From positions 14,081,501 through 14,145,500 of the forward strand of contig CM072339.1 of NCBI GenBank assembly GCA_036874045.1: a stretch of DNA of 64,000 nt. Direction: 5' to 3'. The notes below the pieces were generated by a model that did not search any database, was not told the DNA's origin, and was given only the letters and a program-made list of their open reading frames with translations. Source of the stretch: Cymodocea nodosa. Its lineage: Eukaryota; Streptophyta; Magnoliopsida; Alismatales; Cymodoceaceae. Positions 1,401 through 56,145 of the stretch are shown here, in pieces (position 1 is the first letter of the stretch; every line of letters begins with the position of its first letter). Made by a program: the position numbers and the translations under genes.

Positions 1401-1402
1401 AT

Positions 1403-12856: not shown

Positions 12857-12991
12857 GGTAGATTGAAATTCAATATGCGCTCGCCCGCCGTCAAAGATCG
12901 TAGCCGAACTGATTTATTTATACAGGCAGAAAGCCAGCCACTAATTCCCAATTCTCCTCCCCATCCCTGCTGGTGTCAAAACGTTCCAAAG

Positions 12992-21100: not shown

Positions 21101-24100
21101 TTTGACGCAAGTATCTAATTTATTTTTTGATTAATGAGTTTCACCTTTCTTCATTTAAAAATTCCTTTTGTGACTGCCCTCAAGAAGGTTAGGTTTGCAC
21201 CATACATCTTTGTGCATGCTTTTCCCCAGCTTATTATAATGATCCTATACCCATTTATTGCATGAGTTATTCATATTGTGATCCTTATTTTTGGTTATTA
21301 TCCTAGACAAACTCTATTTTCTTCTTCAATATATTGCAGTTAGAAAGTTCTCGGCAGTTTGGAGACTAGATAATGGTCTGAACACACCAGGTAAAGTAAT
21401 TCACACTATAAATAACATATTGCCATGCATCTTCCCATGGAAAAGGGCAATGTATTGGAGGCCATCAGCAAATAATATTTCCAGAACACGCACCATAGCA
21501 TTGATCAGGTTTACCAGATGATTAAAAATTCTATATATTCCTTTTGTTTTCTTATTATTTTTGTTTATGTGAATCATCTTCCTATGCATGGGATGCTTAT
21601 GAATTGTGTATGCTACTTTGAATTCAGTAAAAAGTTGCAACTCTCTAGAAAGAGAGATACTTTGTATACAGTTTCAAAAGGTGGATTTTCTCTTCGGAAG
21701 TCTGGTGTTTTAAGTATTGGAAGGTCTAATTTGACTTGGTCAAAATCTATTGAGAGGCGCTCAAAGAAGGTTAATGAGGTTAGCTCATCCAAGAATGACT
21801 TTATACTTATAAGCTCAAGCTTAATTTTTCCTTTGTTGCTAAATAATATTCCTTTCACAAATAGCAAAATTCAAAATTATTTATTAGCTTTATCACATCT
21901 AGGTTGTTTGGCTTGACAAAATTCAATTAGGTTGCTCAGTTTGGAAGTTATCACATCTAGATTGCCAACATCGTATACTTTCCATTGCCAACATCTCGGT
22001 GTTGTTTGAGACATCTATGTTTGGCAAATGGTCATCTAGTAGAGATCCAGTTTGTTGGGAAGATTGAATATACAATAGCTTGAATGGAGTGCCACCATCC
22101 ATGTTTTTTCTAATAAAATCCCTTCATACCCAGACAACAAACCTCAAATTTGAAGGGCTTGGGCTCCCATTCAATGTTTAATGCTCACCATAAGGCGGAC
22201 ACTAGAGAAGGAATTTTAGTATGGATCATACCTATCAGCTCCCACGAAGATGCAATTAAGGCTTGCCATCATAGAGTTTGCTTGGAAGTTGGACAAAGTG
22301 AAGGACTCATTGCCAATCAACAGTTTCACCCATTCCAACTCACAAATGATATCATTGTATTTGTGCATCTCAGCTGTCAGTCCTGTGTTCCATAGCCTAT
22401 CTGATGTGAATCTGGTGATATTGAAGTCCCTTCCCACTACCAACTGTTGATAATGGTGCTGTCCCACTTTACGAAGGTCATCTCAAAGCTCATGATGGAG
22501 ACTTTAATCACACAGCCCGTAAACACTGAGGATGCACCACTACATGTTTGAATTCTTGTCTTTCAGACTCATGCAGATGGCAAATGTCAATATTTACTGA
22601 TCCACCAATACCAATGGAGTCTAATATTGTTACAATGCCTTAAGTGGCCCCAGCTGTATTTTTCACACAAGCTTTCAAATCTATTACCTGAAATTGCTTT
22701 GACATGCAACAATCCATATTGTTGAGTTTCATTTCTTGAAGATACATTGTTGTTGGTTTGAATTTTATAATCATGGACTAAACCATTTTTGTTTGCTTAC
22801 TTGGCCCAGCCTTTCTTATATTACTTAAAATTCAGTCTTCATTGCTGATAAATTTTACCCCTTGACAATGCTAGAGCTGTCATTGCCCCTCTTTGAGGGC
22901 CTTCTAGCAGTCAAACAAGTTTATAGTGAAGCTACATGTTGTCACTATCCACATGTTGCTTATTATATGCTACCGTTACTATGCTACAACTACCATTCTT
23001 GCATGCCTTGTACCTATTACTACTATCCAATTCTGTTTTAAGTTATTTCTTTGTTTGTAGTTGTATTTGGTGTTGTTATAAGCTTGTTGCTCTAGCTTGA
23101 GGCAAAGTCTTAAAGTTATTAGGATTATTGTCTTAATAATGAGGTCATGGTGCTATATCAGAATTCATGTATCTTAAATGCAATTAGTCCATTATGTAAC
23201 CTCTATTTATGGAGGTTTAGTAATAGTCAATGAGAACATCTTCTACCTCTCTCATTGTGACAATTCAAGCATTTGCTGTGACACTTTGATGTTTAGTGTT
23301 CAGATTAGGCCATTCTACGTGAAAAATTCAAGCACATAGGTGCAGGCATTTGGGAGCCCATGCCAGACTAGTCATTTGATGACAAATCTTGATTGTTTGA
23401 AGAATTTGAATTTGAACCTTCAAATGGAGGGGTCATGTGATGTGCCATATATGCACGGAAACCTTAAGAGATAAGCTAATGGAATATTGATTTTGATGAA
23501 TTCCAAATGTGTCTTAATGGTGGAAAACCCACAATTTTCCAAGGTTTTGCAATAGACTCAATGATTGCATCCTTTGAAAGTTTCATTTGATTAATAGCTC
23601 AAATGTGGGTAAAATGTGACATGTGAGTACTTATTGGAAAGAAGACTTAAAGAGGAAGATTGAAAGCATGAGAATGCTCTATTGATGTAACATTTGAAAG
23701 ATATTCATTTGAGAAGATAGATGCTGTTCTTAGCATTAATATCTTAGGATCGTGTCAACCCCTCTCACCTAAAGATGAAGGGAGAGGGTTCTACCACTTG
23801 GAAATGTAAGGAACATGTTTTAGTAAGTGTGAATGGCTTTGTGAGCTTGAGGATTGACTTGTGGTGCCCAGACATTATAAGTTTATGGGCCATTTTTGAA
23901 GTCGGATATGCACAAGGTCTAGTCAATTGTGCTAGTCCTTCATAATTCCATTTAGCAATAAAGAGAGTTACATTATTTTTCTTGCCAAATTTGTGTTCCC
24001 ACATGTCATTTAAGGAGAGGAGAGGTTGAGTGCATACGCCCTACTCTTTTTACATGTCATCCCTCACTTCCCTTTCAGAAAGTGTACTCCTACATCTTTA

Positions 24101-27100: not shown

Positions 27101-30100
27101 AATGGAGGGGCCATGTGATGTGCCACATATACATGAAAACCTTAGAGATAAGCTAACAAACTATGGAGTTTTGATGAATTTTGAATGTGTCATTGTGGAG
27201 TAAAACTCACATTTTTGCAAGGTATCCCAAAAAACTTGGTGATTGCATCCTTTGAAAGTTTCATTCAGTTAATGGCTCAAATGTGGGTGGAATGTGATAT
27301 GTGAGTACTTGTTGAAAAGAAGACTTAAAGAGGAAGACTAGAAGTACAAGAGGATCTCCTGTTGATGTGGCATTTGAAAGATTCATCTGAGAAGATTGTT
27401 ACTGTTCTTGGCATCAATATCTTAGGACTATGTTAACTCCTTTCACTTAAATGTAAAGGGAGAGAGTTCCACCACTTGGAAATGTGGGGAACGTGATTTA
27501 ATGGGTGTGAGTGGCCTTGTAAGCCTTAGCATTGACCTTTAGTTCTCGGGTATTATATGTTTATGAGCCATTTTCAAAGTTGGATATCCACAAGGTCAAG
27601 TTTTAGTCAATTGTGTAAGTACTTTGTAAATCCATTTAGCAATAAAGAGAGTTATGTTTTTTTCTTGCCAAATTCACGTTCCCACGTGTCATTTAAGGAG
27701 AGAAGAGGCTAAGTGCATATGTCCTACTCTTCCATACACGCCTAATGATTCAAATACTGTATTGATGATCGATCTTTTGAAAAAGGAAATGTATTGAGGA
27801 TTGAGAATTGTATCTGTGAAAAAATCATACTTTTGTGGAAATGGCTAAAATATATTAAATTTCAAATTGAAACTTAGAAATAAGATGAAATAAGCTATGA
27901 TAAGCATATAAAAACATAGATAAATTTTCTAGGTAATTATCAAACATAAAATATCAATTAGATAGAGATATAATAGTTGAAGGCATAAGAAAAGTTTTAG
28001 ATCATGTACAAATAATAGAAAAAACTTATAATAACAAATGATTTAAAATTCAAGTTATTGTTTAACATATTTTAGGCTATATTTGAGTAGTAATCATACT
28101 ACATTTCAATATATATTAGATTACATTTTAATAGAATCTATGTTATAATTTAATATTTATTAGATTACATTTCAGTAGAATTCTTATATTCATACAATTA
28201 AAATATATTTTTTAATACATTTTAATAGTAAATTATAATTTTTTATTCTTGTAATGTAATTAGTATATTTTTAAAAAAATCTTGCATTAATTAATTAAAA
28301 AAATAGAAAATAAAGTTTGTGAAAGTTAGAAGAGAAATGTTATTCACAAGCAAACATAATTTTTAAAAAAAATTAAAACAATAGAATGTTTTGTGATTTT
28401 TTTTGATACTTTCATTTTTTAACATAATTTTTATATAATAATGCTTTCATTTTTTTTCTTTTCTTTTCTCTTCCCTTCTCTTTTTTTCTTTTTCTTCTTT
28501 CTCTTCCCCCTTTTTTTACACATGTTTCTTTTTTCTCTTTTTTATTTTCAAATATCTTTTCATTTCTTTTTTTTTTCTTTCACATGTGCCGCCCACGTTC
28601 ATTGTCTTCCTTCCACATTTGTCGTTTGTCTCCCCACCTGTAAAACCCTAATGGGTTTCAATGGAGGGTAGTGGTGATTAGCTGCTCTAGCGAAGACTCT
28701 AATGCTTGGCAGAGGCTTTAGTGGTCCATGGAGAAGTTCTTAGTGACAGTGATAGTGAACCCATCTCTAGATCTTGATTAATCCTTTCAACAGATTGATT
28801 GATCTGTCCTTGGAAAGTTGAAAAAAGGGCTAAATCCTAATGATCCATCAATTTGTAACTAATCTTAGATGTGGGATCATTCAAACCATGGTATTTTTGA
28901 AAATAGAAATTGACCAAATCAAACATTGATCTGGGTCAGTGATGTTTTGCTGATCTGGATTGATTTTTTAATCCATGTATATGCCATCCCTCACTTCTCT
29001 TTTGGAAAGTGCACTCCTACATCTCTATCACCCAAATCATAAGTCCTAGTCTTCTCCACCTCTTGAGTCCTTGAATTCTTAAAGGGGATTGAGCTATGGA
29101 TCACAAAGCATTTACAAACACGTGCCCATGCTAAAAAAATTAATAGAGATGCAATTAGAGACCAAAAAATAGAAACAAATCCTATTAACTAAAATCACAA
29201 GAAAATCAGGTCTGATTTAAAAAAGGGAATCTAATAATGCAATGATTGATGATAGTCACTCAAAATAGAGGGTCATAAACAAAATTCAATTCATGTATTA
29301 CATACAGTTGACATGTATCATTTAGTTTTTTTTGATATAGGGTAAAGTTATATCTTATTAGATAAGATCATAAGATTAATCAAAATACAATGAGATGGTT
29401 TAAAGATCAACCATAGGGGAAGATTGCCAGCAAATGAAGGAAATTTAGGACCTGATAAACAGTTTTTCCCTGACTGACGTTTTCATCATTAAAGAGATGA
29501 TCCTTCCTAGTAAGCTAGATCCACCAGCAGGTAGCATGGATGTATTGGAGAAGATGATGCTGATATTGAGTTTTTGTCCCTTTTATTGAGTTAGAGATCC
29601 AGTTTAAGAGTAGTAATCTGGACTGTTGGCTAATCACTTCAATTTCCTTGGTGCAAAATGTGCATGCAGTATTAGCATCAGGTACCAATTTTCTCCTAAA
29701 ATGATTGGTAACCGGCCTTCCATGTACAAGCAACCATTTAAATGCATGAATTTTTTGGGCAATGCAGCTGGCCAGACTAGCTTGAAGTATGGCCAGCTAG
29801 GGTATAAAGAAGGTCTTCACTGAAAAAGCAGTACTATTCATCAATTTCCAAGATGGAATATCATCCCCTTCCTGATCCAGTGATAGGCTTGTTGCCAGTG
29901 AATCCAGTAGCTCTGTTGCTGCTTAGCTCCTTCCATGATCTCCTTGGGTACATGTTACATTTTCTGCCATCCTTGTCTTCATTGTACACCTCAGGCACTT
30001 TAGCCCAAAGTTTCTGAGTAAGTGCAAATGTAGAAGGGAAGATTTCTGCCAAAACCTCCTGTTATTAACAATAGTCATGTCAGAATAAAGTCCTGCTTCC

Positions 30101-33100
30101 AGAATGAATTTGGTAAAAGGCAGGACTTTCTTGTAAAGTGCTGATGTTGTAAAATAACCATCCAGAAGTGGGAATCCTTCAGTTTCTTTTGCAGTGGGCC
30201 ACAATGATCTCTAGCATCCCCATATTTTCTGTTGGGAATACTTGCCCATATACCCTTATCATTGTTAAACCTTCTCCACCACCGTTTACACAATAAGGTG
30301 ATGCTAAGATCTACCAACTTACATATGCCTAGTCCTCCCTGAGATAAAGGACAACACAGTTAAACAATCAATAAGGTGGTTCCCCTTGTTGATGTTGCCT
30401 TTCCAGAGCCATTGTCTGTACTTTGCTTAGATTGCATTGATGATGCCCTATGGCAGCTTGAATCTTGACTTATGAAATTGAAGAATACTCAAGAGCACAG
30501 ATTTTAGGACAATTCTACCTACTAAACTCAAACATCTTCTCCTAAAGTTATATTGTTTATTGTGTTATTTATATTGTTTATTTGTGTTTTTATTTATTCT
30601 TGTTCTTTTCTTGTAGCAAGCTACACGAGCTGTTGCTGAGGTTGAGAGGAAGAAAAGAGAACTAAAGGAACCATGCCATCTTAATGGAGGAAAGAGTGAT
30701 CATCACCTTTCAAGTAAGTTACAAGTTTCTAATGATGTAACAAGCACAATGTGAAAACAATTTTTGCTTATGTTCTTTGGTAGTTAGTAAAATTATATGG
30801 GAGTTTAATGACACAACAAAGTTTGTTAGTATTAGATGTAAGAATTAAAACATGGAAGAAAAAGATTAAAATACATAGAAATACAAAAATTAGTTGGTGG
30901 AATCTAAAAGTTGAAATACAAATGATTTTAAGAAAAGATTTTAAAAGATGGAAGGTAGGAACTAGATGGAAAAGTAAATCATCTTTGGAACGAAATAAAC
31001 ACTTGTTTTAAAAAAATTGTCAAGAAGATTTTAGAAGAGTTTAATTAAAGGAATATAAGTACTACATAAAGAAACTTGATGGTGGAATAAAGATATACAA
31101 AACTAATAGAAGTAAAGTAAGAATGTTATAAAATCTATCATAAATATAAAAACATTGAATTTTTTGAAAAGTATATAAGTGGACAAAAAGGTCAACAAAA
31201 AAGTGTAGCTAAACATTAGGGTTATAATGGGTGTCCAAGGCATCTTGCCTATCCAAACACCTTGACACCTAAAATAACTTTGTGATTGCCTCACTTTAGT
31301 TGTGGCATTGCCTTGCCTTTAGTTTCTTACCTTAGGCATCTTCGATGGTGTCACCTTAAGATTGCCTTTTACCTTAATTGCCTCAAGTAGGAAATAGTTT
31401 TAATTTATAATTATGGAGAGGTTCCTTGGAATCCAAAGGATTTACACTAAAATGGAGTGTAAGCATGGTAATGACAGGAATAATGTTGAAAGAATAAACT
31501 TAGATGACCATAAAATTCCTGAAAAATAATAGTTTTAGATGCTTAAGATCTATTATAAGATAGTGTAAAGAAATTACAAAGGATGTTCATAGAATTACAG
31601 TAAGATGTTGAAGTGGTGAAACACCTAAAATAACAATGTTATCACCTTAGTTGTGGCATCACCTTGCCTTTTAGTCTCTCACCATAGGCATCTTCAAGGG
31701 GATCACCTTGAGATTGCCTTTCACCTTAATTGTTTTAGGTTGTATGTTGAAGAGTAAAATTAGATGGTCATAAAATATCTAAAACTAATAACTTTAGATG
31801 CTTAAGATCTATTATAAGAAAGAATGAAGAAGCTATAAAGCATGTTCATAAAATTAAAGTAGAATGGTTAAGATGGACAAATACTTTAAAAGTTTAGAAG
31901 TGTATCTTGAAAATGTTATATGTCATCTATTAATCTAGATAATGTATGGTTTAGACTGTTGGATTGCTAAGCATACAACGGCAAGAAAACAACTTATGCT
32001 ATAATCCCATCATGTGGGGTTAGTCATATGAATTCTTTTCTTTTTTTATATTTTTATATATGTTCAAATCTTCAGTTACATAAATTTAAGTCTATTCTTA
32101 CAATTCCTAAGTAATGTTAGATTTTCCATTACTTTTCTTAGTTTCTTTTATACTAATTAATTCTTGTCTCCTATCTTATCTTATAGTTGATTTTCCTTTA
32201 TCTTATCTTTGATTGGTGCAACTTTTAGTATATTCTCAATAAAAACAATTTTTAATTTATCTCTTATGGTATAATCAATGATCTATTTAAACATCTGTAT
32301 TTCTGTAATACTACTTTTTTGTAAATAGTTATGCTTTACAATTCAATAATCTAAGTCAAAATATGGTTGAACAAATAACAATTTTATAGAATTTTTCTTT
32401 TAATTTTTAATAGTTTGTGACTAGTTGTGTAAGTGTTAATCTCCATAGGTGAACTTTGGACTGTTAAATAGTTATGCTTTACAATTCAATAATCTAAGTC
32501 AAAATATGGTTGAACAAATAACAATTTTATAGAAATTTTCTTTTAATTTTTAATAGTTTGTGACTAGCTGTGTAAGTGTTAATCTCCATAGGTGAACTTT
32601 GGACTGTTAAACCTGTACATATGAAAAATTAGTATTACAGTAATGAAATCTTCAAGAGGGATGGCTGTATTATATAGATGATGTTTTTGTCGAAAATAAG
32701 ATGGAAGTTGGACTTATTAATGATTAAATAATAGAATATTATCTTAGATGGTTTGATTATATGAGCCATAGAAAGCTTATAGATGCACATATAAAGAAAG
32801 GAGAACTAGCTTATTTAGGTTAAACTAAAATATGTACAGAAAGATCATATAGATTATTTGATAAGTGGAGAACCCATCACTGGATCAATTGATCCTTTAA
32901 ATGGATTAATTGATCCATCCTTTAGTAAGTCAAAAACTTAGCCACATCGAATGATTCATTGATCCAGCACTGGTCTCAAACAACAGATATTTTGATATAT
33001 AGTATTTTTGATAATACCTAAGGTTTTGGGATCAAGAATGTCAAAAACCAACCTAAATCAGTGAAATATGATCAATTTTTTAAATCCTTGCATGTAAATT

Positions 33101-36100
33101 GAATGAAGACAAACTAGTGGCATTGGTGGTGATGACTTGGGTAGGGCTAGTGGTGGAGTGGTTGGGAGGAGGGCGGTGGCTAGGATTTCTCTTCTCCTTA
33201 TTTGGATTTTTCACAATTTCTAAACTCTTAAGCTTGGATATTATGTGAGAACACAAGAAATAGGTGGAAGTAGATTGATGCATTAGCAAACATAAGAGTC
33301 TCTTTATATATAAAGGTTACATAAGGGAAACAAACACAACTCTGCTAATATGAGATTAAACCCACACAGCTAAAACTGTCATACATTATTTTCTTCAAAA
33401 TGGATTCATCTAAAAGAAGTCTGATTAGGATCCTAGGTAAGCATGTGTTCTTTCTTGTTTATAAACCTGTTTGTAATGTATGTTCGATTTTTGGTTACAC
33501 AGATGTTACATATTTTCTTAGAATGTTATTAAGAAGTTAAGATGTGACATATTTTACTAGAAAATTAATAACAATGGGGACAATTATTTTTTCTTCCTTT
33601 TCTTTCCTTTTGAAGCTTCAATATCTAATAAGATTTAATGGACATGATGGTGGTTGCATCCATTTGGTTCTCTTATGTGGTTGGGCTTTGCAAAAATTTG
33701 GATTATATTATGGGATACCATGTTTGGGATATTGTAAATATAGGATACAAATATGTTTGTATATGATAAATGAAAGGTAAAAAAATGATATTTGACATTT
33801 GGAAAGTGGAAACGAAGCATGAGACTTGAGTTGGTGTGAACCAAGGATTTAAAAGTCAAGATGGATCAGTGAAATTTCACTTATCCGTCTCGGATTTTAT
33901 TTTTACCAAACTCAATATCCCATGCATTCTTGAAAATATGATGGATTGAGCAATCTATCATTGAGAATTGGTGCTAGATTTATAGGTTGTTTGATCCAAT
34001 GCATTTTTTAAGTGAGGTTGGATCGATCAATTTGATGAAAGAATCGGTTGATCATACTAAGCCGTTGTGACTGCCAACCATTGAAGTCTTCACCAACTAC
34101 TAAAGCCTCCACCACTGACTGTTGAAGCTTCCTCTTTGCCCAACATTAGAACCCATTAGGGTTTTTAGGTGGGTGGTGGAGAGGGTTGAAGGAGGGAGGG
34201 GATGATGATGTGAAAAAGAAAAAGAAAGAAAGGGAAGAATGTGAGAAAAGAAAGAAGAAAAGAAAAAAAAGAAAAAAGAGAAAAAAGGAGAGATCAAACA
34301 AAGAGAAAAAAAGGAGAGAAGTGTACTTCTCAAAACTTTATTTTCTATTTTTAAATTAATTCAAGTGAACTTTTTAAAAAAAGATATTAACTATATTATA
34401 GGAATAAAAATTTATAATTTACTCTAAAATCTGATAATTGATAAAATTTTTAATTATGGAGATTAGGAAGGGCAATAACAAAAAGAAAAAAAAGGAAAAG
34501 AGAAGAAAAAATGAAAAAATTTATTGCATAAAAAATGATGGAAGTGTTAAAAAAATCACAAAAATACTAATAAATTTTGAATTTTTTTTAAAAATTATGT
34601 TTGCAAGTGAATAATGTTCCTCTTCTACCTATCAATTATATTCACACAAAGTTTATTTTCTATTCTTATTAATTCATGTAAGATTTTTTTTAAAGATGTT
34701 AACTACATTATAGGAATAAAAAATTATAATTTACCATAAAATCTTATAATCGATAAAAATTTTAATTATGGTGACTATGAAAATTCTTTTGTACCATGCA
34801 TAATCTTAGGCTGCATTTGTTAACGGGCTTGAGCAGTGTTAGAGCAATGTAGAATGACACTATACATGTGTTGTGAGGGAGGATTTAGAAAACTGCTCCC
34901 CAAATGCACTGTTACCATTCTTTAATGAATAGTAACAATAATTAAGGTCTACGCCTTCTACTGTGCATTGTGATAGCATTCATTGGGCGGAGTAGGTACA
35001 ACTGTGCCCAGTGGATGGAGCAACATAGAGCATTAACAAACACATCCTTATTAATTTGTGTTTCATGTATGAAATATAGCCTGAATTCTATTGGAATGTA
35101 ACTTCATAAATATTGAACTATAATCTAGATTCTATTGAAACATAATTTGGTTTCTATTAAAATATAATATGAAATATATTGATTTGTAACTTAGATTATA
35201 TTCAACTGTACTTTGGATTTTATTAAAATATAACTTGAATTTTAAATCATTTGTTTTTTTTAGTTATTTGTATATGATTTAAGAATCCTCATACATGCCA
35301 CTACTATATCTCTTTCTAAGTGATATTTTAAGCAAGATAATTGCTTAAAAAATTTATTTAGATGTTTAGATATACTTATTGTAACTTGTTTTATCATATC
35401 CCTGAGTTTTAAGTTGGAATCTAGAGGTTTTTAGCCATTTTCACAAAAGTGTTGCATTTTCATTGATATGATCCTTGATCTTCAATACATTTCTTTTTCT
35501 CAGAGGATCAATCCTCTATACAATATTGATATTTGGAACCTTGGTGTGAATTGTGAAGATGATTAAGAGTTTAGGTAAGTGATTTTTGAACGATAAGCAT
35601 GCTACAGTTTGATTGATGTCACAATTGGTTTTTCCTGGAGCTGTCGTCAGAAACAAGAGCTGAAATAGAAAAGCTAATAGGTATTAGAATGATTAGGAAA
35701 ACAAATAAGATTAGTTGAGTCATAAGTGCTTAGATTTTTCCTTAATTTTTGGCAATCACTGTTGTGCATTATCATAAGATGTCACATAATTAAATACTTA
35801 AGCAAGCCTTATTCCATGTACTACAGGTTTGCTTTCATCTCCTACAAATCAGCAGTCAGAAAATGGCATTCCAAATTCTTTCAATCCTAGAAGACTGTTA
35901 ATTGGACATGATGAGTAAGGATGTATTTCATATGTTTAAAATCATCATAAATTCAAGTTTAATATATGTTGGGAATGACCATAAATTCTAATGCAAGTTT
36001 AACACAGGGTTGTACTTTTGGTTTTGGCTTTTGGAATACAGATATATTCGAATAGGGAATGGCAATAAGCTTGTTCGAGATCCAAAAAAACTTGTTCGCA

Positions 36101-39100
36101 TGTTGGCAAGTGAAAAAATTCGATGGAGCTTGCACACTGCTAGAAAACGACTAGCCAGAAAACAGGAATATTGTCAGTTCTTTACAAGATTTGGAAAGTG
36201 CAATAAAGAGGCTGGGAAATGTCCATATATTCATGATCCTGGCAAGGTGGCAATATGTACAAAGTTTCTGAAAGGCATATGCTTTGGCACCAACTGCAGA
36301 TTAACACACAAGGTGAAGGCTCCTTTCATTGATTGAAAATTCTTAATTACAAGTAATGCATATGCTGGGTAGCTTTTTGATAAACTAGCTTGTTTCAGGT
36401 GATTCCTGAAAGAATGCCAGACTGTTCATATTTCTTGCAAGGTGGGCCTTTTTTGCACATGATTTTATATTTTTTAGGGAACATAAAACATAAAGGCACA
36501 TGTTGCTGCAGGCCTTTGCACCAACATCGGCTGTCCCTACAGGCATGTAAATGTACATCCTAAGTCTTCCATCTGTGAAGGGTTCCTAAAGGGTTATTGT
36601 GCTGATGGTGATGAGGTATGCATTGTATTCTGTATGCATGGCACGTATAATTTCTGATGGTATTACAAGAACTATTATAATAAAAGAAAAGTGACTTCCT
36701 CGTTTGGTTTTTATATAATTTTAAAAAGTATTGTATATTTTATTACAGCTTTACCAAAACATAAAATACCAAGCGTTTATAAAATGAAAATACCAACTAA
36801 ATAATTTAAATTGTGTCTAACACCACTTCATAATCTCTCTCTCCAATTCTCTTTCTTTAATTTTTTTTTCTTCCCTTGTAATACTCATCCATGATACTAC
36901 TACCATAGATTTAAAAATTGTAATGGATCAGTGAATTTTGGATTTCATTTGTGTCAATCCTGATATCCCATGTATTCTCAAAAATACTATGGATTGGATG
37001 ATTTTTCATCAAGGATCAATGGATTATTTGATCCAATATATTTTTTGAGTTGTTGGAGGCCAAATTGATCAATCAAGTGAAGCATTAGTCGATCCAAAGA
37101 ATGTTCTCTATCACCTTTGCTGATTGCCAATTGTCGAAGCTTTCACCAAAGTATTTTTCACTGACCGTTGAAGCCTTTGTTGTTGATCATTGAAGTCTCC
37201 TTTTACATAGATTGTAGGAATCTATGAAGGTTTTTAGGTGGTTGGGGAGGATAGAAGGAGGGAGGGGGTGAGTTACTCATGTGAGAAAAAAAGAATAAAA
37301 AAGAGAAAGGGAAGAAAGAGAGAATGAGAAACTAGAAAAGAAAGAAGAAAAGAAGAAAGAAGAAAGGAAAATGGAAGAGAGAAGTAATAACAAATATTAC
37401 ATAAAAAATTATATTTAAGAAATGGTGAAAGTGTTAAAAAATTATAAAAATTCTGATTTTTTAAAAATTATATTTTTTAATGAATAATGTTGGATAACAT
37501 AGTCACACCTTGGAAGTGATGTGTTTGAACCTAGGCCTAATAACATTGTGCCCCTATTTTCTTACTGTCAATTAGTTTTGAGGTGAATTTTAAAATAACC
37601 TTCGTGAGTCTAATTTGTGCATGTCACTTGTAAAACACTCGTAAGTTAAGACAAAGTCACAAATGCGGAAGAATGTTGGACAACATATCCTACATTGATA
37701 TTATTAAGAGTTGGAATATCACCACCTAAGGGTTTGATGACGTGATTTATAAGGAATGCAGTAGAAAGAACATTTGACCAAAGATGCTTGAGAATATTCA
37801 TTTGAATAATAAATGTACGGTCCACATTGAGGATATGCTAATGCTGACATTGTTGTACCATTATATTGAGAAGTGTGTGGATAAGCTGTTTGATAAATAA
37901 TCCCAAGCAAAGCACAAATATTTTGCATATCTTGTTGAACAAACTCATGAGCATTATCAATATATGAGATTTTAGGAATGGTTCAACTAAAAAATTTGAG
38001 TACATCAATAACATTATGATGATTTTTCAGCAAGTATACTTATGAAACACCAGATTAATCTTCAGCAAAAATCAAATAATAATGATGTCCCAAAATAGAA
38101 GTGATACAACTTAGATCCCAACATCACAATGGATAATATCAAAAAAACTCTTGCTAGACACAAGGCAAGGTGTTGAAAAGAAGTATAAGTATGTTTACTC
38201 AACTAACATGACTCACAATTAAAAGTAGAAATGGAAAGTCATGGTAGAGCTTGTTGAAGCTTTGATAGAGAGGTGTCCTAATGTCAAAGAATTGATAGTT
38301 GTTGTAGACATTAGAGTTGTCAAACAACTTAGTACATTGTTGTGTACAAGTAGGTATACCCCATTGCTATGTCTATGGTCTAAACCAATCCTCTTTCCTA
38401 TTTATAAATCTTGAAAATTACAATGGAAAGGAAAAAAGGTTATTGAATATTGCAAGTGGATAATAATAGCACTAATGAATAATAAATTTATAGGAAAGTT
38501 ATGTACATATAGGACATTGTTGAGTCTAATTTGGAAAGAGGCTTGAATGCCCCATTGTTTAGATATAGAACAAGAACAATCATTAACAATGGTAACTTTG
38601 GATATATTAGAAATAGAGGATATCTTTTAGAAAAGGCTTGATGTACCTGACATATGAGAAGAGACATTAGAATTTGACTAAGGAGTTATTTATGGAAGTG
38701 AGGAGGGCAACATGGGTGGTATTACTTGAAGTTTGAGCACTCATGATTATGGAACTTGATTCCTATGATTGATAGGGATGATCATATTACTCTTGAGAGA
38801 TGGTGACAACACTAGAGTAGTTGAAGGTTGAGATGACGTTGTAACAACATGGGTCTATTGAGGTTTGCTACCAACTTTGTCCTAACATTTTTCTAAATTG
38901 TGACTAGTCTTATCATAGCGTTGACAATGTATGAATTGTTTGCTCTTGTAGCTTCCACCTCCTTATCTATGACCATGTAAAGAAGTTGCAAACATTGTTG
39001 ATCTATGATTGAGGGTTATGATTTCATTGAGATCCTTATAACCTTTGTAAATGTCTCTTCTAGATCAAGCATTTGATTAGCACTAAGAATTTAGACTACA

Positions 39101-41496
39101 TATTTGTGAAGACACTTCATGATTTAAACTAGACAAATATGCTGCAACAGTTAACTCCTTATATTGTGTATCTTTGTGATATTTGCAATAGGTGGCTGGT
39201 AGATATCTAACTCAATCAATCCTTGTATAATGTTGTAATAGTTTTGTGGTGTTTGATCATATTGCTTGAATGTAAAAAGTTGTTTATACACTTGAAGTGT
39301 CTTTGCAATGTTCTTTTCATATTTATAAGTCTTTCAGAGTAAGCCCTTGGATGGATCATTTTAACTTCATAAGCCACAAAAGGCTTCATATTAGCAGGCA
39401 TCCATGAAGTAATTGTAGTGTTATCTACAACCAATCTGCATAAATTGAATTCTTTACTTCTAATGGATCTTTAGTGAGGTGATTTAACATATGATGAACA
39501 ACCACAATTGTTTTAAAACTTCATGCCTATAATATGTAATTCTTTTTGTTCAATTTTTTTGTAGTTACCATGAAACCCTTGAAAAGTGTCATAGGTAGCT
39601 ATGCCATGTTACAATACAAATAGTCCACAACTTCAATATATGTTTTTTTATAATAGCACCTTTTTTTTTTGTAGTTAACTTTAGTGTAATCATGAATGGT
39701 TCTCAAATAGTTCACAATAGCACCACTAGACCCAAGCATATGCCACAATATAGGTGGCAAAACCAGAAATCATAGACAGCACAACTTCACAAATTGAAGA
39801 TGGCCCATAGATGGCAAATTGAAACTAGGATGACCTAGGGCACAAGCACCATAGATAGTTGTGAGAACAACAAAACTTCATGGACAATGTAAAATGACTG
39901 TCCACATGAATAGTAGCCATTGGTGGCACAAGAAAACAACAAATGGCTTGCCATCCCTTACACAACCAATTTGTGGCCCAAGCACACACCAACATGAGAA
40001 AAACATGTGGAAATCATAGTCACATGCATGAACGACAAAGGCAACAAACTAGGGCATCTCTATGGTCAATGTTGTGGCTGTTGATGATGTTGACCACATG
40101 GGGAAGGAAGTTTGTTGTGGTTTGGTCAAACTAGGGTAAATAATAGTAGCATTGGAGAAGCTTAGATGTTTTAGAGAAGATGTGGAAGGAGATGGAGGCG
40201 TAATTCTGTCTAATGGGGAGAAGGAAAAGATGTAGTGAAGGGGGTGGTCGTGCAACCTGAATGCTTTGATATCAAGTTACACAAGAAGGAAAAACATGTT
40301 CATTCATCGTAGGGTTACAATGAGATATATAGGGTAAAAACCCTATTACAGTGAAAAGACCAAAATACCCATAACAAAAATATTGGTCACACTTTTCTTC
40401 CTTCTCTTGTATGTCAATTATATCTTAAAAATGTTTTACACATTCCTAGAGCTACTAAGAATCTTCTTTCAGTTGGTAAGTTTACAAACAATAATGCTTT
40501 CTTTGAATTTCACCTTAAAGGCTTGTTAATGCACATTGGAAAGTTTAGACGGAAAGAAAATGGAAAGTTTAGAAGGAAAGAAAATAAAATGTTTGGAATG
40601 TTAGAATTCCTGTAGGGGTTTAGTGCACCTACTAGAAAGTTTAAAAAGTTACAATTCCCATAGGATTTTAGTGCACACCAGAATATTCAAAAATTGAAAA
40701 AGTAATGAAATAAATTGTAAAACACTACATAAAATTGTGTAATTGATACATCAATCTGTAATTTAATATTTAAAAATAAAAATAATATTAATGAATTGAA
40801 AATAATATTAATTTATTTCATGTTCAAATATAATTATGTACATTAAATGTAAAAATATTGTACATTAGGAAATATAATGGCTCAATATAGAATAACAATC
40901 ATTAAAATGCAAAAGGTATATAAAAGATAAGCATGCTTTTTAGTATTAAAAATCTACATCCTAATTTTTTTTTGTAATTTTAATTTTATTTTATTATTAT
41001 TATTAATTATTGAATATATATTTCTAATATTATTCTCTCTTTCTCTTAAATTATTTTATATAATTATATTTATTTTATTTTATTTTATGTGTATTTATAA
41101 TTTAAAAAAAATAATTTAAAGATGTTATATCATTATTAATCCATTGTTTACCATTATTATTTTAATATATATGTATGTATATTTATTTAACTTGGTAAAT
41201 CAAAAATATCTTGGTTGAGAAAAAAACAAAATATTTACTAATATATTATTATTATTTACATATTTATTTATTGGAGAACGATTGAATCGTAAATATATTG
41301 GTTGAATCGATAGATTATAAATTATTAATAGTTATTAATATTGGAAACGGTTGAATTGATGATCTTTTGGTTCAATCGATAATTATGTTATATATATATA
41401 TATTAATCGGTTGAATGGATGGCTTAGTAAATTTGTATTTTTTTATGATATTTTTAAACTGGTTGAATCGATTTCATTTCAGTTCAATCAATAGTT

Positions 41497-41531
<35 letters not shown>

Positions 41532-53500: not shown

Positions 53501-56145
53501 GCACATTCAATGTATTGAGTTGTTTGCATCGGCCTTACATGTTGATGCATTCAAACTATAGCCCTCTTTATGTGCCTCTCCTGTGTTTTGAGGACAATGA
53601 CCCTTCTCTTGAGATGGTCCTTTGATCTTTATCTAGTAGTTATGTCACCTTCCAGCCCATGGATGAGCATAGCTTGACATTGATGCTGTGCACTCCATTT
53701 TTGAATGTGCATTCAATGCGTAGATTTTGCCTTGTCAATTGGAATACCCTTGCGACCTCAACATGATGATTCAACTCTCGAGGACGATGGTCCCTTAGCT
53801 TCTCCATAGTTGGTTGCTCACCACCTGCATTATTGTTTCACCTCCCCATCTGCATGGCTATAGAAGGTTACTTCTACTTGTCAACTAGGGGCAGACATGG
53901 AGACAAAGATCTAGGGATCTTGGAGAGCTTAAATGCTTTGATCTACAATCAAGAAGCTCGTTTGCTTTGACTCCACTATGTCCAACCAATGCCTCTATTG
54001 TGCCCAATCAACTCCTCTATTGCTCCTTTGAAGTTGCCACCAAGTTTTGCTCGCTTTGTCGAAGCTTCTACCTAGACCATGGACACTTTCATTGAAACCT
54101 TTCATTAAGCTTTAGACACTTCCATTGAAACCTTTCATTGAACTCTAAACACTTTCATCGAACCTTTTGCTGAACTTTGGATACTTCCACCAAAGCTTCT
54201 ATAGACTTCTGCTAAAGCCTTTGTCGAGTCATTACGAGCTTCATCATTGCCTCTATTGCCAAGTCAATTGGAACTATCATTGCTAGCCATTGGACAAATC
54301 GTTGACTCATCAAAACTATTGTCATCAAGTGCCAGACAAGCAATTGGACCCATTGAAATCATCAAACAAGCCGTCAGACTGTTGCCTTTGCCATTGGAAA
54401 ATTGCCATCATCATTGGATCTCACCTAAAGATCCTACATTTCTCCCAAGTTAAGTATATACTTATAAATGCCCTCACTTGCATCTTTTTAGCATTTATTG
54501 TGCATGCATGCGCTAGATAAGCTTTGCATCAGATGTGGATTTGTCTTGATAACTTTATCTTGTGACCTTGCCTCAATAGGTTAGTGAGAGGTTTGCAACC
54601 CCCTTAGCAATATACAACCCTAGGCTTGTTAAGGGCCTATGGTAGCCTAACTCTCTCAACACTTAAGATTAGTCTCCTAGCATCCTTGCACTCTATTGGC
54701 TAGAATTATACACCTTCATACATAATTTACTAACCTTGTCACCAATAGGTGGCAATGTGGTCAATTGCATTGCCTGATCAACCTTAGACTTCAATATGTT
54801 AGAACTAAGTCCATGTAATCTAAGGCATATTTAAGGTCCATCCTTACACATATCGACTATCTCATAGGTTCTTAGCACTTTTCATCTTGGGCCTATGAGT
54901 CCGCTTCCTTTTAGGTTCATTAGCCTAAGCTTCATTTTCTTATTGTATAAATAGATGAACCTGCATCTACACACACATATATTAGTATCTATTAGGTATA
55001 TGAGAGACCAACCTTTAGTCAGATGTATGGGATACCTAACACCTTCCTCATACATAATTGAAAAGTTTATCCAAACTTCATCTCCTTTGTAAGATATAAA
55101 TGTCACTTATATGTATTATCTTGCATTGCACCTTAAGATTTTCCTAATTTACCTTTTCAATAAACTTAGCGGTGACTTTTTCCTTCAAGAGATTTCCTAA
55201 GCGTTTGAGTTGAGATGTCAGTTGATATAAATTTTTCCACAAACTAATGCTCACCTTTAAAGAATTAGTTTGAGGGAGATTTTAGTGTAGAGTCTGTTAA
55301 GTTAGTTAAAGATAGTTAAGTTAATGTCTGCAGAGTCTGTTAGTCATTGTGCCCTATGATTTGATGAAAGTGCGTCATGGTTACATTCTTCCTCTATATT
55401 GGGGTGACTGTTTTCTTATTCTTGTAGTTATATTTTTCTTTTGTTGTGAGTTGCAGCCTCACCTTCTCTCTCTCTTCTCTTCTTCCAGAGATTGTTTAAC
55501 AAAAGCAATTGATGACATCATTTGACAAGAAAACCATGTAGCATATTTATTTTTGGCATGTTTTTGACATCCACATAGGTCCATATTTTTTTTGTGGCCT
55601 CCATTATTTTTCATTCTTAGCCATTCATGCAAATATATGTTGTGGGATTTGTGGTTGTAAATAAACCATTTTAACTACTAATGATATCTACATCCTAGTG
55701 ATAGAACTTGGGTATGATTCTTTCTCTTCTCTTAATACAGTGTCGGAAGAAGCACAGCTACGTGTGCCCTGATTTTGAGGCAACCGGGAAGTGTTTGGAA
55801 GGATCTTCTTGCAAGCTTCATCACCCAAAGCAACAAAACAAATCCAGAAAGAGGAAAAGTAATACTGAACAGGTACCTAGGAAAGGTCGTTACTTCGTTT
55901 CCAGCATCACTGAGGTGTGTCAACAATGTGATTCAAGGTTGAACATCAGGGAGAGGAGTGGAGATTCTTTCTTATCTGAAGGGCATTTTGCAGAGTACAT
56001 AAGGCTTGATCCAGACAGTGAAGATGATGGTAAGAATGGCCCAATGTATTCTCGTCCATTAAAGGAGGTTGCTTACGAATCACCTGACAAATGGTTAGAT
56101 GATCTTTCTTCCCTCACCAAGCCCATCCGGATCATGTCTTTATAG
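12992..56145 (+). CDS. C3H7: Five-finger CCCH zinc-finger protein (C3H7/ZC3H3 type), nine exons
   Basis: Join of 12992-18101, 21340-21508, 21628-21778, 30617-30713, 35827-35914, 36042-36312, 36399-36441, 36512-36615 and 55741-56145. It totals 6,438 nt, an exact multiple of three, for 2,145 residues plus TAA-type stop at 56143-56145. Five CCCH fingers lie near residues 1916-1936 (CX8CX6CX3H), 1944-1961 (CX7CX4CX3H), 1971-1988 (CX7CX4CX3H), 1998-2016 (CX7CX5CX3H) and 2020-2039 (CX8CX5CX3H). Family knowledge: Arabidopsis C3H7, animal ZC3H3 and fission-yeast Red5 share this five-finger block; ZC3H3 and Red5 act in the nucleus in poly(A) RNA processing, export and exosome-linked surveillance. By inference this protein is nuclear and binds RNA. 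A basic stretch KKKRRKKRK near residue 947 could be a nuclear signal. The ATG at 12992 (AAAGATGG) has a good context; an in-frame ATG at 12875 would add 39 residues. A 39-nt exon at 33398-33436 seems lost. Confidence 0.9.
18184..18860. other. Intron 1, unrecognised part
   Basis: AT-rich intronic sequence with decayed repeats of GGGTCAG/GGGTTTATTGAC type between 18280 and 18400. No gene or clear element is seen. Confidence 0.45.
18870..20660 (+). mobile_element. RTE-type LINE reverse transcriptase remnant in intron 1
   Basis: Several frames together spell a plant RTE-clade LINE: KYKLVKARERKFRDLTQVKR, IKDEDGGTLVK and KKAIKKMQYGKIIGLDVIPI, then ENQFGFMFSRSIMKAIHLLR, and a tail reading LNLWNFTEDLTIDSNIWKKI shortly before the 3' end. 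There are many stops and indels. It lies in the sense direction of the host gene. Confidence 0.8.
20661..21339. other. Intron 1, unrecognised 3' part
   Basis: Moderately AT-rich sequence without recognised coding or repeat features. It ends in the acceptor ATATTGCAG at 21339. Confidence 0.5.
21340..21508 (+). CDS. C3H7: C3H7 exon 2
   Basis: Acceptor AG at 21338-21339, donor GT at 21509; it enters in phase 1 and leaves in phase 2. It reads VRKFSAVWRLDNGLNTPG ... ILPCIFPWKRAMYWRP. The FPWKRA-YWR motif is conserved in plant members of this family, which supports the junction with exon 1. Intron 2, which follows, is only 119 bases. Confidence 0.88.
21628..21778 (+). CDS. C3H7: C3H7 exon 3
   Basis: Acceptor AATTCAG at 21627, donor GTTAGC at 21779; phase 2 in, phase 0 out. 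It contains SRKRDTLYTVSKGGFSLRKS followed by GVLSIGRSNLTWSKSIERRS, the most conserved block before the fingers in plant homologues. Intron 3 after it is 8.8 kb. Confidence 0.9.
22140..22900 (-). mobile_element. L1-type LINE endonuclease fragment
   Basis: On the minus strand 22216-22467 reads VVGRDFNITRFTSDRLWNTG and MHKYNDIICELEWVKLLI, the end of the AP-like endonuclease domain of plant L1 LINEs (normal form GGDFN-xR). The rest of the interval gives only short frames. It is a dead fragment, antisense to the host gene. Confidence 0.7.
22901..23253. other. Intron 3, unrecognised part
   Basis: No coding or repeat assignment was possible. Confidence 0.4.
23257..24176 (+). repeat. LTR-like repeat, left copy (gypsy)
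   Basis: It starts TGTGACAATTCAAGCATTTG and ends TTATGGATCA. The same sequence, diverged, begins again at 26936 and ends at 29103. Between the copies lie gag- and protease-like frames, so they are taken as LTRs. An internal AAATGGAGGGG stretch followed by TGTGATGTGCCA is shared by both copies. No clear target duplication was found. Confidence 0.65.
24180..26130 (+). pseudogene. Ty3/gypsy gag and protease remnant
   Basis: With several stops removed by eye, the plus strand shows a gag-like part (INLFDFDGFINVE, LEMHVSLYGYKDKDKVVF, EEFYLMGYLQGCWTKWY). A decayed zinc-knuckle follows (YKHYKVNCHSKERC at about 25120-25160), then a protease to RT junction (ECQKNLVSEEIVCKLGLETI, PHLKPYPLGW at about 25390-25480). 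The order gag, knuckle, protease fits a gypsy element. RT, RNase H and integrase are missing. Confidence 0.7.
26334..26445. repeat. Short tandem repeat, about 24-bp unit
   Basis: Four to five copies of GAGGTGCACATGTGGCACCA with small changes (for example GAGGTGTAGATGTGGCACCA) stand in a row inside the gypsy remnant. Confidence 0.85.
26936..29103 (+). repeat. LTR-like repeat, right copy, with a nested insertion
   Basis: Homologous to 23257-24176: 26936-27736 matches the first part and 28974-29103 the last part (ACCTCTTGAGTCC ... CTATGGATCA). The 1.24 kb between is a Mutator-like insertion listed separately. Confidence 0.65.
27737..28973 (-). mobile_element. Mutator-like non-autonomous element, copy 1
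   Basis: It interrupts the right gypsy LTR. Read on the minus strand it matches the 33840-35540 element from end to end, including TGGATTAAAAAATC at the start, a polypurine stretch (28441-28600 as T/C on the plus strand), a GGGTTTTAC-containing block and AAAGATCGATCATCAATACA near the end. The flanks ATACACGCC and GTATATGCC may be a decayed 9-bp target duplication. Confidence 0.7.
29340..30540 (-). mobile_element. L1-type LINE 3' part with RT zinc-binding domain
   Basis: Minus-strand frames give LPYGIINAI, MVDLSITLLCKRWWRRFNND, KGIWASIPNRKYGD and, downstream, LVHGRPVTNHFRRKL with CTFC. These are the connection and reverse-transcriptase zinc-binding regions of plant L1 elements. Frameshifts and stops separate them. 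It is antisense to the host gene and lies just upstream of exon 4. Confidence 0.75.
30617..30713 (+). CDS. C3H7: C3H7 exon 4
   Basis: Acceptor CTTGTAG at 30616, consensus donor GTAAGT at 30714; phase 0 in, phase 1 out. It reads QATRAVAEVERKKRELKEP. With exon 3 it gives KKVNE-QATRAVAEVERKKRE, a continuous charged helix typical of the family. Introns of 8.8 kb and 5.1 kb flank this 97-base exon. Confidence 0.88.
30830..32060 (+). mobile_element. RTE-type LINE remnants in intron 4
   Basis: Weak but repeated matches to the thumb region of RTE LINE reverse transcriptase occur: MECKHGNDRNNVERINLDDH near 31450, then a second diverged copy LDGHKI ... RCLRSIIRKNEEAI near 31760-31830. The tail ends with TCCCATCATGTGGGGTTAGT, a usual RTE-LINE 3' sequence. 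It is heavily mutated. Confidence 0.6.
32323..32608. repeat. Tandem duplication, 143-bp unit
   Basis: A unit starting AAATAGTTATGCTTTACAAT and ending GAACTTTGGACTGTT is present at 32323-32465 and again at 32466-32608 with only one or two differences, so the duplication is recent. Confidence 0.95.
32609..32868 (+). mobile_element. RTE-type LINE C-terminal fragment
   Basis: The frame near 32710-32820 reads YYLRWFDYMSHRKLIDAHIK, matching the LRWFGHV-type C-terminal motif of RTE LINE proteins. No other domain is visible. Confidence 0.6.
32870..33100 (-). mobile_element. Mutator-like element end, copy 4 (fragment)
   Basis: On the minus strand it reads CAAGGATTTAAAAAATTGAT at 33095, then GGATCAATTGATCC repeats, resembling the first 250 bases of the 33840-35540 element. 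The rest of the element is missing. Confidence 0.55.
33398..33436 (+). pseudogene. Disabled 39-nt exon of the CCCH gene
   Basis: The frame reads KMDSSKRSLIRIL followed by a consensus donor GTAAGC at 33437. This matches the KMDSSRRTLQRI motif that I recall from plant homologues, directly before the part encoded by exon 5. It would enter in phase 1 and leave in phase 1, exactly as needed between exons 4 and 5. But the sequence before it is TTATTTTCTTCA with no G: the AG acceptor is missing one base. The only nearby AG (33368-33369) gives a wrong frame and an early stop. Skipping keeps the protein in frame. A base missing from the assembly would look the same. Confidence 0.65.
33840..35540 (+). 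mobile_element. Mutator-like non-autonomous element, copy 2, with intact target duplication
   Basis: The element starts ACCAAGGATTTAAAAGTC and ends ATATTTGGAACC. Both flanks carry TTGGTGTGA (33831-33839 and 35541-35549), a perfect 9-bp duplication typical of Mutator-like elements. Terminal inverted repeats are poor, as in non-TIR MULEs. Inside are a G-rich block (GGTGGGTGGTGGAGAGGGTT), a long purine stretch (34200-34320) and AT-rich DNA. No transposase is seen. It sits in intron 4 about 290 bases before exon 5. Confidence 0.8.
35827..35914 (+). CDS. C3H7: C3H7 exon 5
   Basis: Acceptor TACTACAG at 35826, donor GTAAGG at 35915; phase 1 in, phase 2 out. It encodes LLSSPTNQQSENGIPNSF then NPRRLLIGHDE. 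The RRLLIGHDE-YIRIGNGN junction with exon 6 matches the conserved RRLVIGNDE-YVRIGNGN of the family. Confidence 0.85.
36042..36312 (+). CDS. C3H7: C3H7 exon 6 (CCCH fingers 1 and 2)
   Basis: Acceptor GAATACAG at 36041, donor GTGAAG at 36313; phase 2 in, phase 0 out. It encodes YIRIGNGNKLVRDPKKL, a basic helix (RWSLHTARKRLARKQEY), finger 1 (C-x8-C-x6-C-x3-H, CQFFTRFGKC to CPYIH) and finger 2 (C-x7-C-x4-C-x3-H, CTKFLKGIC to CRLTH). All zinc ligands are present. Confidence 0.95.
36399..36441 (+). CDS. C3H7: C3H7 exon 7 (start of finger 3)
   Basis: Acceptor TGTTTCAG at 36398, donor GTGGGC at 36442; phase 0 in, phase 1 out. It encodes VIPERMPDCSYFLQ, the invariant linker and first cysteine of finger 3. 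Introns of 86 and 70 bases flank this exon of 43 bases. Confidence 0.95.
36512..36615 (+). CDS. C3H7: C3H7 exon 8 (rest of finger 3, first half of finger 4)
   Basis: Acceptor GTTGCTGCAG at 36511, donor GTATGC at 36616; phase 1 in, phase 0 out. It encodes GLCTNIGCPYRH, closing finger 3, then SSICEGFLKGYCADGDE, which supplies the first two cysteines of finger 4. If intron 8 were read through, the frame would add 13 residues and stop at TGA, giving a protein with only three full fingers. Confidence 0.95.
36616..36899. other. Start of intron 8, unrecognised
   Basis: AT-rich sequence with no assignable element. Confidence 0.4.
36900..37490 (+). mobile_element. Mutator-like element, copy 3 (truncated)
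   Basis: It is homologous to 33840-34600: ATAGATTTAAAAATTG, ATGGATCAGTGAATTTTGG, ATATCCCATGTATTCTCAAA, then the GGTTTTTAGGTGGTTGGGGA block and the purine tract near 37280-37380. The distal half is absent. Confidence 0.65.
37640..40275 (-). mobile_element. Ty1/copia gag to integrase remnant, minus strand
   Basis: Read on the minus strand the order is a primer-binding-like site (40263-40275), a gag N-terminus near 40255-40050, a UBN2-type gag (ITSWMPANMKPFVAYEVKMI, 39434-39216) and a zinc-knuckle (CQRYDKTSHNLEKC, about 38930-38880). Integrase follows: YLIFAEDYSGVSYVYLLKNH near 38090-38030, DNAHEFVQQ near 37950 and YPHTSQYNG near 37870. There are many stops. RT and RNase H are missing. The element is antisense within intron 8. 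Confidence 0.75.
40263..40275 (-). promoter_or_regulatory. Retrotransposon primer-binding site
   Basis: On the minus strand it reads TTGATATCAAAGC, two mismatches from TGGTATCAGAGC, the complement of the initiator methionine tRNA end used by copia elements. The LTR remnant would then begin at 40276 and run to higher coordinates; it contains a TATATATC box (minus strand). Confidence 0.6.
40390..40517 (+). pseudogene. Ty1/copia pre-integrase fragment, plus strand
   Basis: The frame reads YLKNVLHIP-like sequence then RATKNLLSVGKFTNNNAFFE, the conserved copia segment ahead of integrase. It is cut at 40515-40517 (TTA), where the Harbinger terminal sequence starts. The copia frame at 50880 may be the other side of the same element, but the integrase core is missing between them. 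Confidence 0.7.
40518..42000. repeat. Left arm of the long inverted repeat (Harbinger B)
   Basis: Matches 47816-49240 in reverse: terminal modules (40521-40690), TGTAAAACACTACATAAAAT, AATTGATACATCAATCTGTA, a TTATTATTATT-rich stretch and the GGTTGAATCGAT array. Confidence 0.85.
40704..40800 (+). repeat. Direct repeat, outer copy (Harbinger B)
   Basis: The block GAAATAAATTGTAAAACACT through AATAATATTAATGAATTG recurs at 42478-42573. The two copies bracket the GGTTGAATCGAT array, like the arrangement 3' of transposase A. Confidence 0.8.
41270..42250. repeat. GGTTGAATCGAT / ATCGATTGAACC array
   Basis: Units of about 160-178 bases start near 41461, 41639, 41801 and 41978. Each has GGTTGAATCGATTTCATTTC, then a GGTTCAATCGAT-type inverted partner, a TA dinucleotide run (longest 41500-41527) and TTGAATTGATTGAAA. 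The array lies 3' of transposase B and is repeated inverted at 47830-48540. Confidence 0.85.
42478..42573 (+). repeat. Direct repeat, inner copy (Harbinger B)
   Basis: Second copy of 40704-40800, beginning GAAATAAATTGTAAAACATT. It lies between the palindromic array and the 3' end of the transposase. Confidence 0.8.
42930..44122 (-). pseudogene. Harbinger DDE transposase, minus strand (broken)
   Basis: The N-terminal part (44122-43709) reads YIKRLLNPSQPHQVYNCRKI and FFVTTRQNQRYEVTIERLSR. The middle (about 43500-43300) keeps AIDGIHIQ with the first catalytic aspartate and ARFRNRKGELSQNVMA; the second is disturbed by an indel. The C-terminal part (43202-42933) reads YICPFQSIHYHLSDY and RIVIEHTFEFVKHRFSIL with the catalytic glutamate. 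It is homologous to transposase A at 2752-4135 but lacks the acidic C-terminal tail. Stops and frameshifts make it inactive. Confidence 0.85.
44681..45419 (-). pseudogene. Harbinger ORF1 Myb/SANT-like protein, minus strand (broken)
   Basis: From an ATG at 45419 the frame reads MSTPNRRKAGGG, CISWNVEADAYFLDILAKVL and THDGKIKYNT, then meets TGA where ORF1 of element A has tryptophan (TGG to TGA). Further on it keeps KNVKSCLKT and WGWN-like sequence. The C-terminal portion (44956-44681) reads MIIENMTRQND ... ESFKYTSKAIIHV. It is clearly the partner of the transposase just downstream. Confidence 0.8.
45585..45655 (+). repeat. Short repeat p, first copy
   Basis: CATGAAAATGATGTAATCAA through CTTTTAAAGAAGTAAGTTAT. 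It recurs in the same direction at 47149-47213 and reversed at 47766-47815, each time beside the terminal module GGAGGGTTAGTGTACA or its interior. Confidence 0.8.
45850..46020. repeat. Triplet-like array in the left arm of X
   Basis: Runs of CGTTGCTTC, GTCGTCATTTTTGTC and TTCCGTC alternate and produce long low-complexity frames (Asp/Ser/Asn or His/Arg/Cys). The same array occurs at 47420-47570 and reversed at 50510-50640. Confidence 0.85.
47149..47815. repeat. Copy of the X end between inverted p repeats
   Basis: 47149-47213 is a second copy of p, 47214-47765 repeats the first 560 bases of X (45656-46215) in the same direction, and 47766-47815 is p reversed. The block directly joins the inverted Harbinger B arm. 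Confidence 0.75.
47816..49240. repeat. Right arm of the long inverted repeat (Harbinger B)
   Basis: Reverse-complement match to 40518 to about 42000. It includes GGTTCAACCAATTCAAAAA units with about 150-base period (47870-48380), the ATATGTAAATAATAATAATA region, the TTTTTACATTTAATGTACAT region and three terminal GTGCAC modules. Confidence 0.85.
50880..52620 (+). pseudogene. Ty1/copia reverse transcriptase and RNase H (broken)
   Basis: It begins LKCFDPMSSKLLISHHVTFD (end of integrase/linker) and goes on with PFWHAAMEKEFNTLIANCTW (RT start, about 51220). The long frame 51570-52076 gives KLHKLYGLKQVPWAWFHHF, then LVYVDDLLLV with the RT active site YVDD. RNase H follows: FFDADWSSNKDDCKSTGEYV (about 52190-52250), then KHVEVDFNFVCDKVF and a decayed C-terminus near 52600. 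Stops and frameshifts are frequent. It is in sense orientation inside intron 8. Confidence 0.85.
52621..54480. other. Intron 8, unclassified low-conservation stretch
   Basis: Less AT-rich than the surroundings. Loose internal repeats are visible (53360-53530: two diverged copies around TTCTTCACTGGATGATGCA and TTCTTCACCAAGCGGTGCA; 54060-54200: repeats around CACTTTCATTGAAACCTTTC). It may be the 5' part of the LTR fragment that follows. No coding domain was recognised. Confidence 0.4.
54481..55200 (+). repeat. Probable Ty3/gypsy (Tat-like) LTR fragment
   Basis: It contains a TATA box (TATAAATAG at 54946-54954) and GTATGGGATACCTAACACCT then TCCTCATACATAATTG, a sequence characteristic of LTR ends of Tat-type gypsy elements. 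A downstream AACTTAGCGGTGACTTTTT resembles the region just after such LTRs. No pair was found in the window. Confidence 0.5.
55200..55501 (+). mobile_element. Copia 3' end and short LTR
   Basis: A remnant reading FHKLMLTF (decayed FTKPL-type polyprotein end) is followed by the polypurine tract TTTGAGGGAGAT (about 55269-55280). An LTR of 216 bases follows, from TGTAGAGTCTGTTAAG (55286) to GTTTAACA (55501), with CTTCTCTCTCTCTTCTCTTC near its end. It ends 239 bases before exon 9. Confidence 0.65.
55741..56145 (+). CDS. C3H7: C3H7 exon 9 (end of finger 4, finger 5, C-terminus)
   Basis: Acceptor CTTAATACAG at 55740. The exon begins CRKKHSYVCPDFEATGKC: the first Cys and His complete finger 4, and finger 5 is C-x8-C-x5-C-x3-H ending in CKLHHP. 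Next comes a basic stretch (KSRKRK) and an acidic, probably disordered tail ending KPIRIMSL and a stop at 56143-56145. ADGDE from exon 8 joined to CRKKHSY is the conserved family sequence, which strongly supports splicing across 19,125 bases. Confidence 0.93.
   Translation, partial: CRKKHSYVCPDFEATGKCLEGSSCKLHHPKQQNKSRKRKSNTEQVPRKGRYFVSSITEVCQQCDSRLNIRERSGDSFLSEGHFAEYIRLDPDSEDDGKNGPMYSRPLKEVAYESPDKWLDDLSSLTKPIRIMSL

Follow-up and report, generated by a model that had tools for sequence, protein, structure and literature searches.

Arabidopsis SOP1 is At1g21580 (formerly At1g21570/AtC3H7 plus At1g21580), and the kin of SOP1/DCM1 proteins include ZC3H3 and S. pombe Red5. Insertions of transposable elements that abolish a splice site and lead to exon skipping are a known kind of event. 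According to two reports, SOP1 is a cofactor of the nuclear exosome in Arabidopsis, its rice homologue has been named DCM1, and both proteins carry five CCCH fingers in their C-terminal part (PMC4735120, PMC6258382). In the window, by which we mean the whole 64-kb stretch of DNA analysed, the host gene appears to be of this SOP1/DCM1 type and would encode a plant RNA quality-control protein. We consider it likely, judging from the sequence, that the insertion of a long terminal repeat (LTR) retroelement beheaded one exon of this gene and that its transcripts now skip the remnant.

Joining exons 3 to 9 (Table 1) produced a spliced model whose translation of 385 residues contains no internal stop; all exons have AG acceptors and GT donors, and exon 9 closes at the stop codon. 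Five CCCH units can be read by eye in the C-terminal part of the joined exons, as in plant SOP1 and rice DCM1. The Pfam model zf-CCCH matched the joined exons with 27.6 bits (cut-off 20.5, E 2.6e-06) while five other finger or related models remained under their own cut-offs, and the exons taken singly gave only weak finger matches, under cut-off. A search of solved structures returned seven CPSF30-type chains that aligned across the fingers only, with zero coverage of the 13 extra residues considered below. Upstream of the finger exons and on the same strand lies an ORF of 1783 codons (12833-18181) without a Pfam match. It fits as a candidate for the large N-terminal part of a SOP1-type gene. 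The gene may differ from SOP1 and DCM1 in that a short segment ahead of the fingers is apparently absent from the spliced frame.

Table 1. Features of the SOP1/DCM1-type gene and of the repeats next to the 39-nt stretch (window positions)
Feature	Position	Strand	Remarks
Exon 3	21628..21778	+	SOP1-like, ..SIERRSKKVNE
Exon 4	30617..30713	+	QATRAVAEVERKKREL.., ends in phase 1
Second repeat, truncated copy	32871..33090		beyond the LTR fragment; right end ~33090 by eye
Leader fragment, same element as LTR	33095..33243	-	leftmost match begins at 33095
LTR of old retroelement, 157 nt	33244..33400	- (antisense to gene)	outer end adjoins putative exon remnant
TATATATAA, TATA-like	33305..33313		inside LTR; basis of the alternative-first-exon explanation
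In-frame TAA	33346..33348	+	blocks in-frame extension upstream of the 39-nt stretch
Leading 3 nt of the 39-nt stretch	33398..33400	+	LTR terminal bases by alignment
36-nt host stretch	33401..33436	+	with the A at 33400 reads MDSSKRSLIRIL
Donor-like GTAAGC	33437..33442	+	directly 3′ of the 39-nt stretch
Exon 5	35827..35914	+	LLSSPTNQQ..RRLLIGHD, starts in phase 1
Exon 6	36042..36312	+	first CCCH fingers
Exon 7	36399..36441	+	
Exon 8	36512..36615	+	CCCH fingers
Exon 9 (last)	55741..56145	+	fifth finger and stop; preceding intron ~19 kb

An earlier note on this DNA had described a short exon between exons 4 and 5, apparently disabled by the loss of one base at its 3′ splice site. Reading the sequence confirmed that 33398-33436 comprises 39 open nucleotides in phase 1 at either side, with a GTAAGC donor and preceded by TTCTTCA (33391-33397), i.e. 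without AG. The claim that skipping these 39 nt keeps the frame also holds: the exon 4-exon 5 join has no internal stop, its translation reads ..DHHLS-S-LLSS.., and the downstream part looks intact. The path that includes the 39 nt is likewise free of internal stops (..DHHLS-KMDSSKRSLIRIL-G-LLSS.. in translation), and the two splice paths differ by 13 residues. The absence of a frame-keeping acceptor was borne out as well. Between the in-frame TAA and 33397, AG occurs at 33353 and 33368 only, giving exon lengths of 3n+1, and the AGs at 33415, 33418 and 33427 give lengths of 3n+2. Rescue of the stretch by a nearby AG was rejected since all AG-derived lengths are of these two kinds; from the TAA to the donor at 33437 there is no frame-keeping AG acceptor, and the stretch could not be spliced in as an internal exon at an AG without shifting the frame. 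As a separate observation, the sequence AG/GTAAGC (33435-33442) at the end of the remnant could represent a zero-length, recursive-splice-like exon; its pyrimidine tract is poor.

The origin of the sequence just upstream was examined by a search of the genome (374.6 Mb, 28 contigs; probably a plant's, to judge from its genes) with 33100-33450 as query. Scoring covered 40 of the 471 candidates from the first look, which makes the resulting counts lower bounds: at least 42 matches were listed including the window itself, at least 41 of them non-self. Among the 41 non-self matches listed, 26 end at query positions 289-302 (33388-33401), 15 stop earlier, by query 274, and no match reaches beyond query 302 (33401), even with a query extending to 33450. 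The commonest BLAST stop is 33394, shared by 13 of the 26 edge-reaching matches. Twenty copies, selected for reaching the edge (the 15 earlier-stopping matches are outside the column count), were fetched and aligned with the window LTR in 21 rows over the 157 nt corresponding to 33244-33400. These 20 rows represent fewer elements, three pairs being taken as the two LTRs of one element each. Column conservation holds through 33400, where A is found in 18/20 copies, and is lost from 33401: at 33401-33407 the window base is present in 1 to 6 of 20 copies. Farther out, A-rich columns common to many copies (33417, 11/20; 33424, 13/20) are read as composition. In rows L020, L022, L027, L030 and L034 the edge is followed by C-rich bases which, by eye, look like element interior and not host. 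We therefore think that 33244-33400 most plausibly represents an old LTR, which runs antisense to the gene and has 33400 as its outer terminus.

The last columns of this alignment deserve a closer look. The window base is common to 18 to 20 of 20 copies throughout 33385-33394, and to 19, 18 and 18 copies at 33397, 33398 and 33400, respectively; the corresponding figures for 33395, 33396 and 33399 are 4/20, 1/20 and 2/20. The LTR of the window ends in ..CATTATTTTCTTCAAAA and most copies in ..CATTATTTTCTCTAACA or near it, with final bases ..TTTTCTTCAAAA in the window compared to ..TTTTCTCTAACA or near it in most copies. The window copy starts with TG and finishes with AA; in the sister LTRs the last-but-one column holds C in 11, T in 7 and A in 2 of 20, and the last column is the A mentioned above. 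The LTR bases 33395-33400 were assigned by ungapped columns, beyond the commonest BLAST stop, and part of them may be of host origin since three of the last six columns deviate and the BLAST stops lie mostly at 33394.

The same columns bear on the proposal that a single G was lost from an otherwise intact acceptor. It is true that TTATTTTCTTCA ahead of the stretch resembles a pyrimidine tract with a truncated acceptor. However, this tract is situated within the LTR columns, including the highly shared 33385-33394, TTCTTCA aligns with the end of the LTR, and an AG at 33395-33400 is absent from all 20 copies, which makes the loss of one base from a host acceptor highly improbable. An assembly or base-calling error, put forward in the earlier note as the main alternative, is next to negligible: the sequence upstream is a 157-nt diverged copy of a genome-wide repeat and not a single-base anomaly. 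The earlier description of the 39 nt is confirmed in part: the stretch is open and followed by GTAAGC, but its first three bases are LTR by alignment. Since both the G-less acceptor and these first three bases align with the LTR, an insertion explains the missing splice site better than a one-base loss.

Many copies with a common end, together with two LTRs in sister pairs, support reading the repeat as an LTR retroelement. The window copy retains one LTR and a leader piece, in which a decayed primer-binding-like site, TAATATCC (minus strand), adjoins the LTR. By eye, 4/20 copies have TGGTATYA on the element strand beside the inner edge of the LTR, a motif that resembles a primer-binding site. 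Among the sister copies there are three neighbouring same-strand LTR pairs, spaced 1.3-1.5 kb start to start, with identities within pairs of 73, 76 and 80% (K2P 0.35, 0.30 and 0.24); the terminal branch of the window LTR corresponds to 0.143 substitutions per site. The element comes closest to TRIM-like, that is, small non-autonomous plant LTR retroelements. It shares with TRIMs an LTR of ~157 nt, paired LTRs in three sister pairs and primer-site-like bases in some copies. The sister elements, at 1.4-1.6 kb in all, are longer than classical TRIMs, and the window copy departs from TRIM-like elements in consisting of a single LTR plus a leader fragment only.

On the far side, the leader ends at ~33095 and abuts the truncated second repeat (32871-33090), which has three matches of 76-78% within 32866-33058. 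A second LTR upstream was not found when the window was compared by BLAST (E 1e-5) with the fetched loci. No target duplication was found either, and the left part of the element was not seen in the window. That neither a target duplication nor the old AG was found can be ascribed to the far side of the element being gone. With a few typed patterns no ancestral acceptor or exon start was accepted in 26001-33396. The single pattern match, AAATGGAT at 32899, lies inside the second repeat and was dismissed as chance because the one sister copy compared there (L011) reads otherwise. Six motif patterns for a possibly longer ancestral exon were also scanned over 26000-35826: three matched the 39-nt stretch itself only, one matched three other places without interpretable context, and two had no match.

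Repeats are also seen in other parts of the window. The stretches 27997-28579, 34327-34808 and 35047-35286, all in introns of the gene, match the second-repeat locus L011 in both orientations. In intron 4, a tandem duplication of 143 nt at 32322-32607, whose units are 99% identical, is recent and stands beside old repeats. ORFs at 1301-4132 and 42936-45010 (minus strand) look by eye like a PIF/Harbinger-type transposase and its Myb-like partner. The ~19 kb intron ahead of the last exon (36616-55740) contains more mobile-element-like ORFs, with a copia-like stretch, by eye, at ~51531-52073.

As to the 36 nt that remain beyond the LTR, we regard 33401-33436 as the probable 3′ remnant of an exon. 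With the A at 33400 it encodes MDSSKRSLIRI, close to the MDSSRRTLQRI of an MDSS-type exon that plant homologues probably carry between exons 4 and 5. The exon identity of 33401-33436 depends on this plant motif, which was brought forward in the earlier note. The 36 nt could instead never have been an exon, and simply be a chance open stretch before GTAAGC, next to where an LTR ends within an intron rich in repeats. In keeping with this, a run of 13 stop-free codons in this phase is found at 25/50 plus-strand and 23/50 minus-strand GTAAGN sites of the 64-kb window, so that the structure of the stretch by itself is not unusual, and no homologues turned up in the viral and prokaryote contig collections. 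On the other hand, if plant homologues do have this motif there, the position in the gene combined with the likeness of MDSSKRSLIRI to MDSSRRTLQRI renders chance very unlikely. On balance we find it unlikely that the stretch was never exonic. Its preservation needs no continued constraint, since in a neutral simulation with 0.143 changes/site the open frame and the GT both survived in 66% of the runs.

The remnant could also serve today as an alternative first exon, with sense transcripts driven by the LTR, translation starting at the ATG at 33400 and the donor at 33437 joined to exon 5. The TATA-like TATATATAA lies ~90 nt upstream of this ATG, the frame is open into exon 5, and the start context AAAATGG is plant-like. 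However, TATA-like bases occur at the same place in most copies, where one would expect them to act on the opposite strand, and a short upstream ORF (ATG 33350 to TAA 33373) may intervene. We consider such a use very unlikely; for the fuller version, in which an internal exon, once beheaded, would have become an alternative first exon through the LTR, whose own last base would supply the A of the ATG, the chance seems slim indeed. If the first-exon reading were true, the gene would give rise to a short SOP1 isoform with all five zinc fingers but without the large N-terminal part.

As for an insertion that beheaded the exon, its simplest history would be that it pushed the acceptor away and that the far side disappeared afterwards. 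If 33401-33436 was an exon, the insertion junction lies inside it or at its edge. An LTR retroelement in antisense orientation would have landed in a short in-frame exon, or right at its 5′ border. The original acceptor, together with whatever exon sequence lay 5′ of the insertion, would thereby have come to lie beyond the element. The far side would later have been deleted or overwritten by another repeat, and the acceptor lost with it. Splicing would now run from exon 4 directly to exon 5 and skip the remnant, and the protein would be without ~13 residues ahead of RRLLIGHD while keeping its five zinc fingers. The remnant would still look tidy because neutral drift has yet to break its frame and its donor.

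More generally, what looks like a one-base splice lesion can turn out to be the place where an old repeat ends, and its history is then one of insertion and later loss instead of a point change. Should the exon be confirmed in relatives, the locus would record the loss of a short segment from a nuclear-exosome cofactor and raise the question of how dispensable that segment is. We see here genome decay of a known type, of which the locus is a new instance, with its cause corrected. Compared to typical exon skipping caused by transposable elements, the case is old and decayed, concerns a plant RNA-surveillance gene, and has its skipping deduced from the sequence. What it has in common with such events is that the end of the element abuts the putative exon remnant, that the acceptor is gone, and that skipping keeps the frame.
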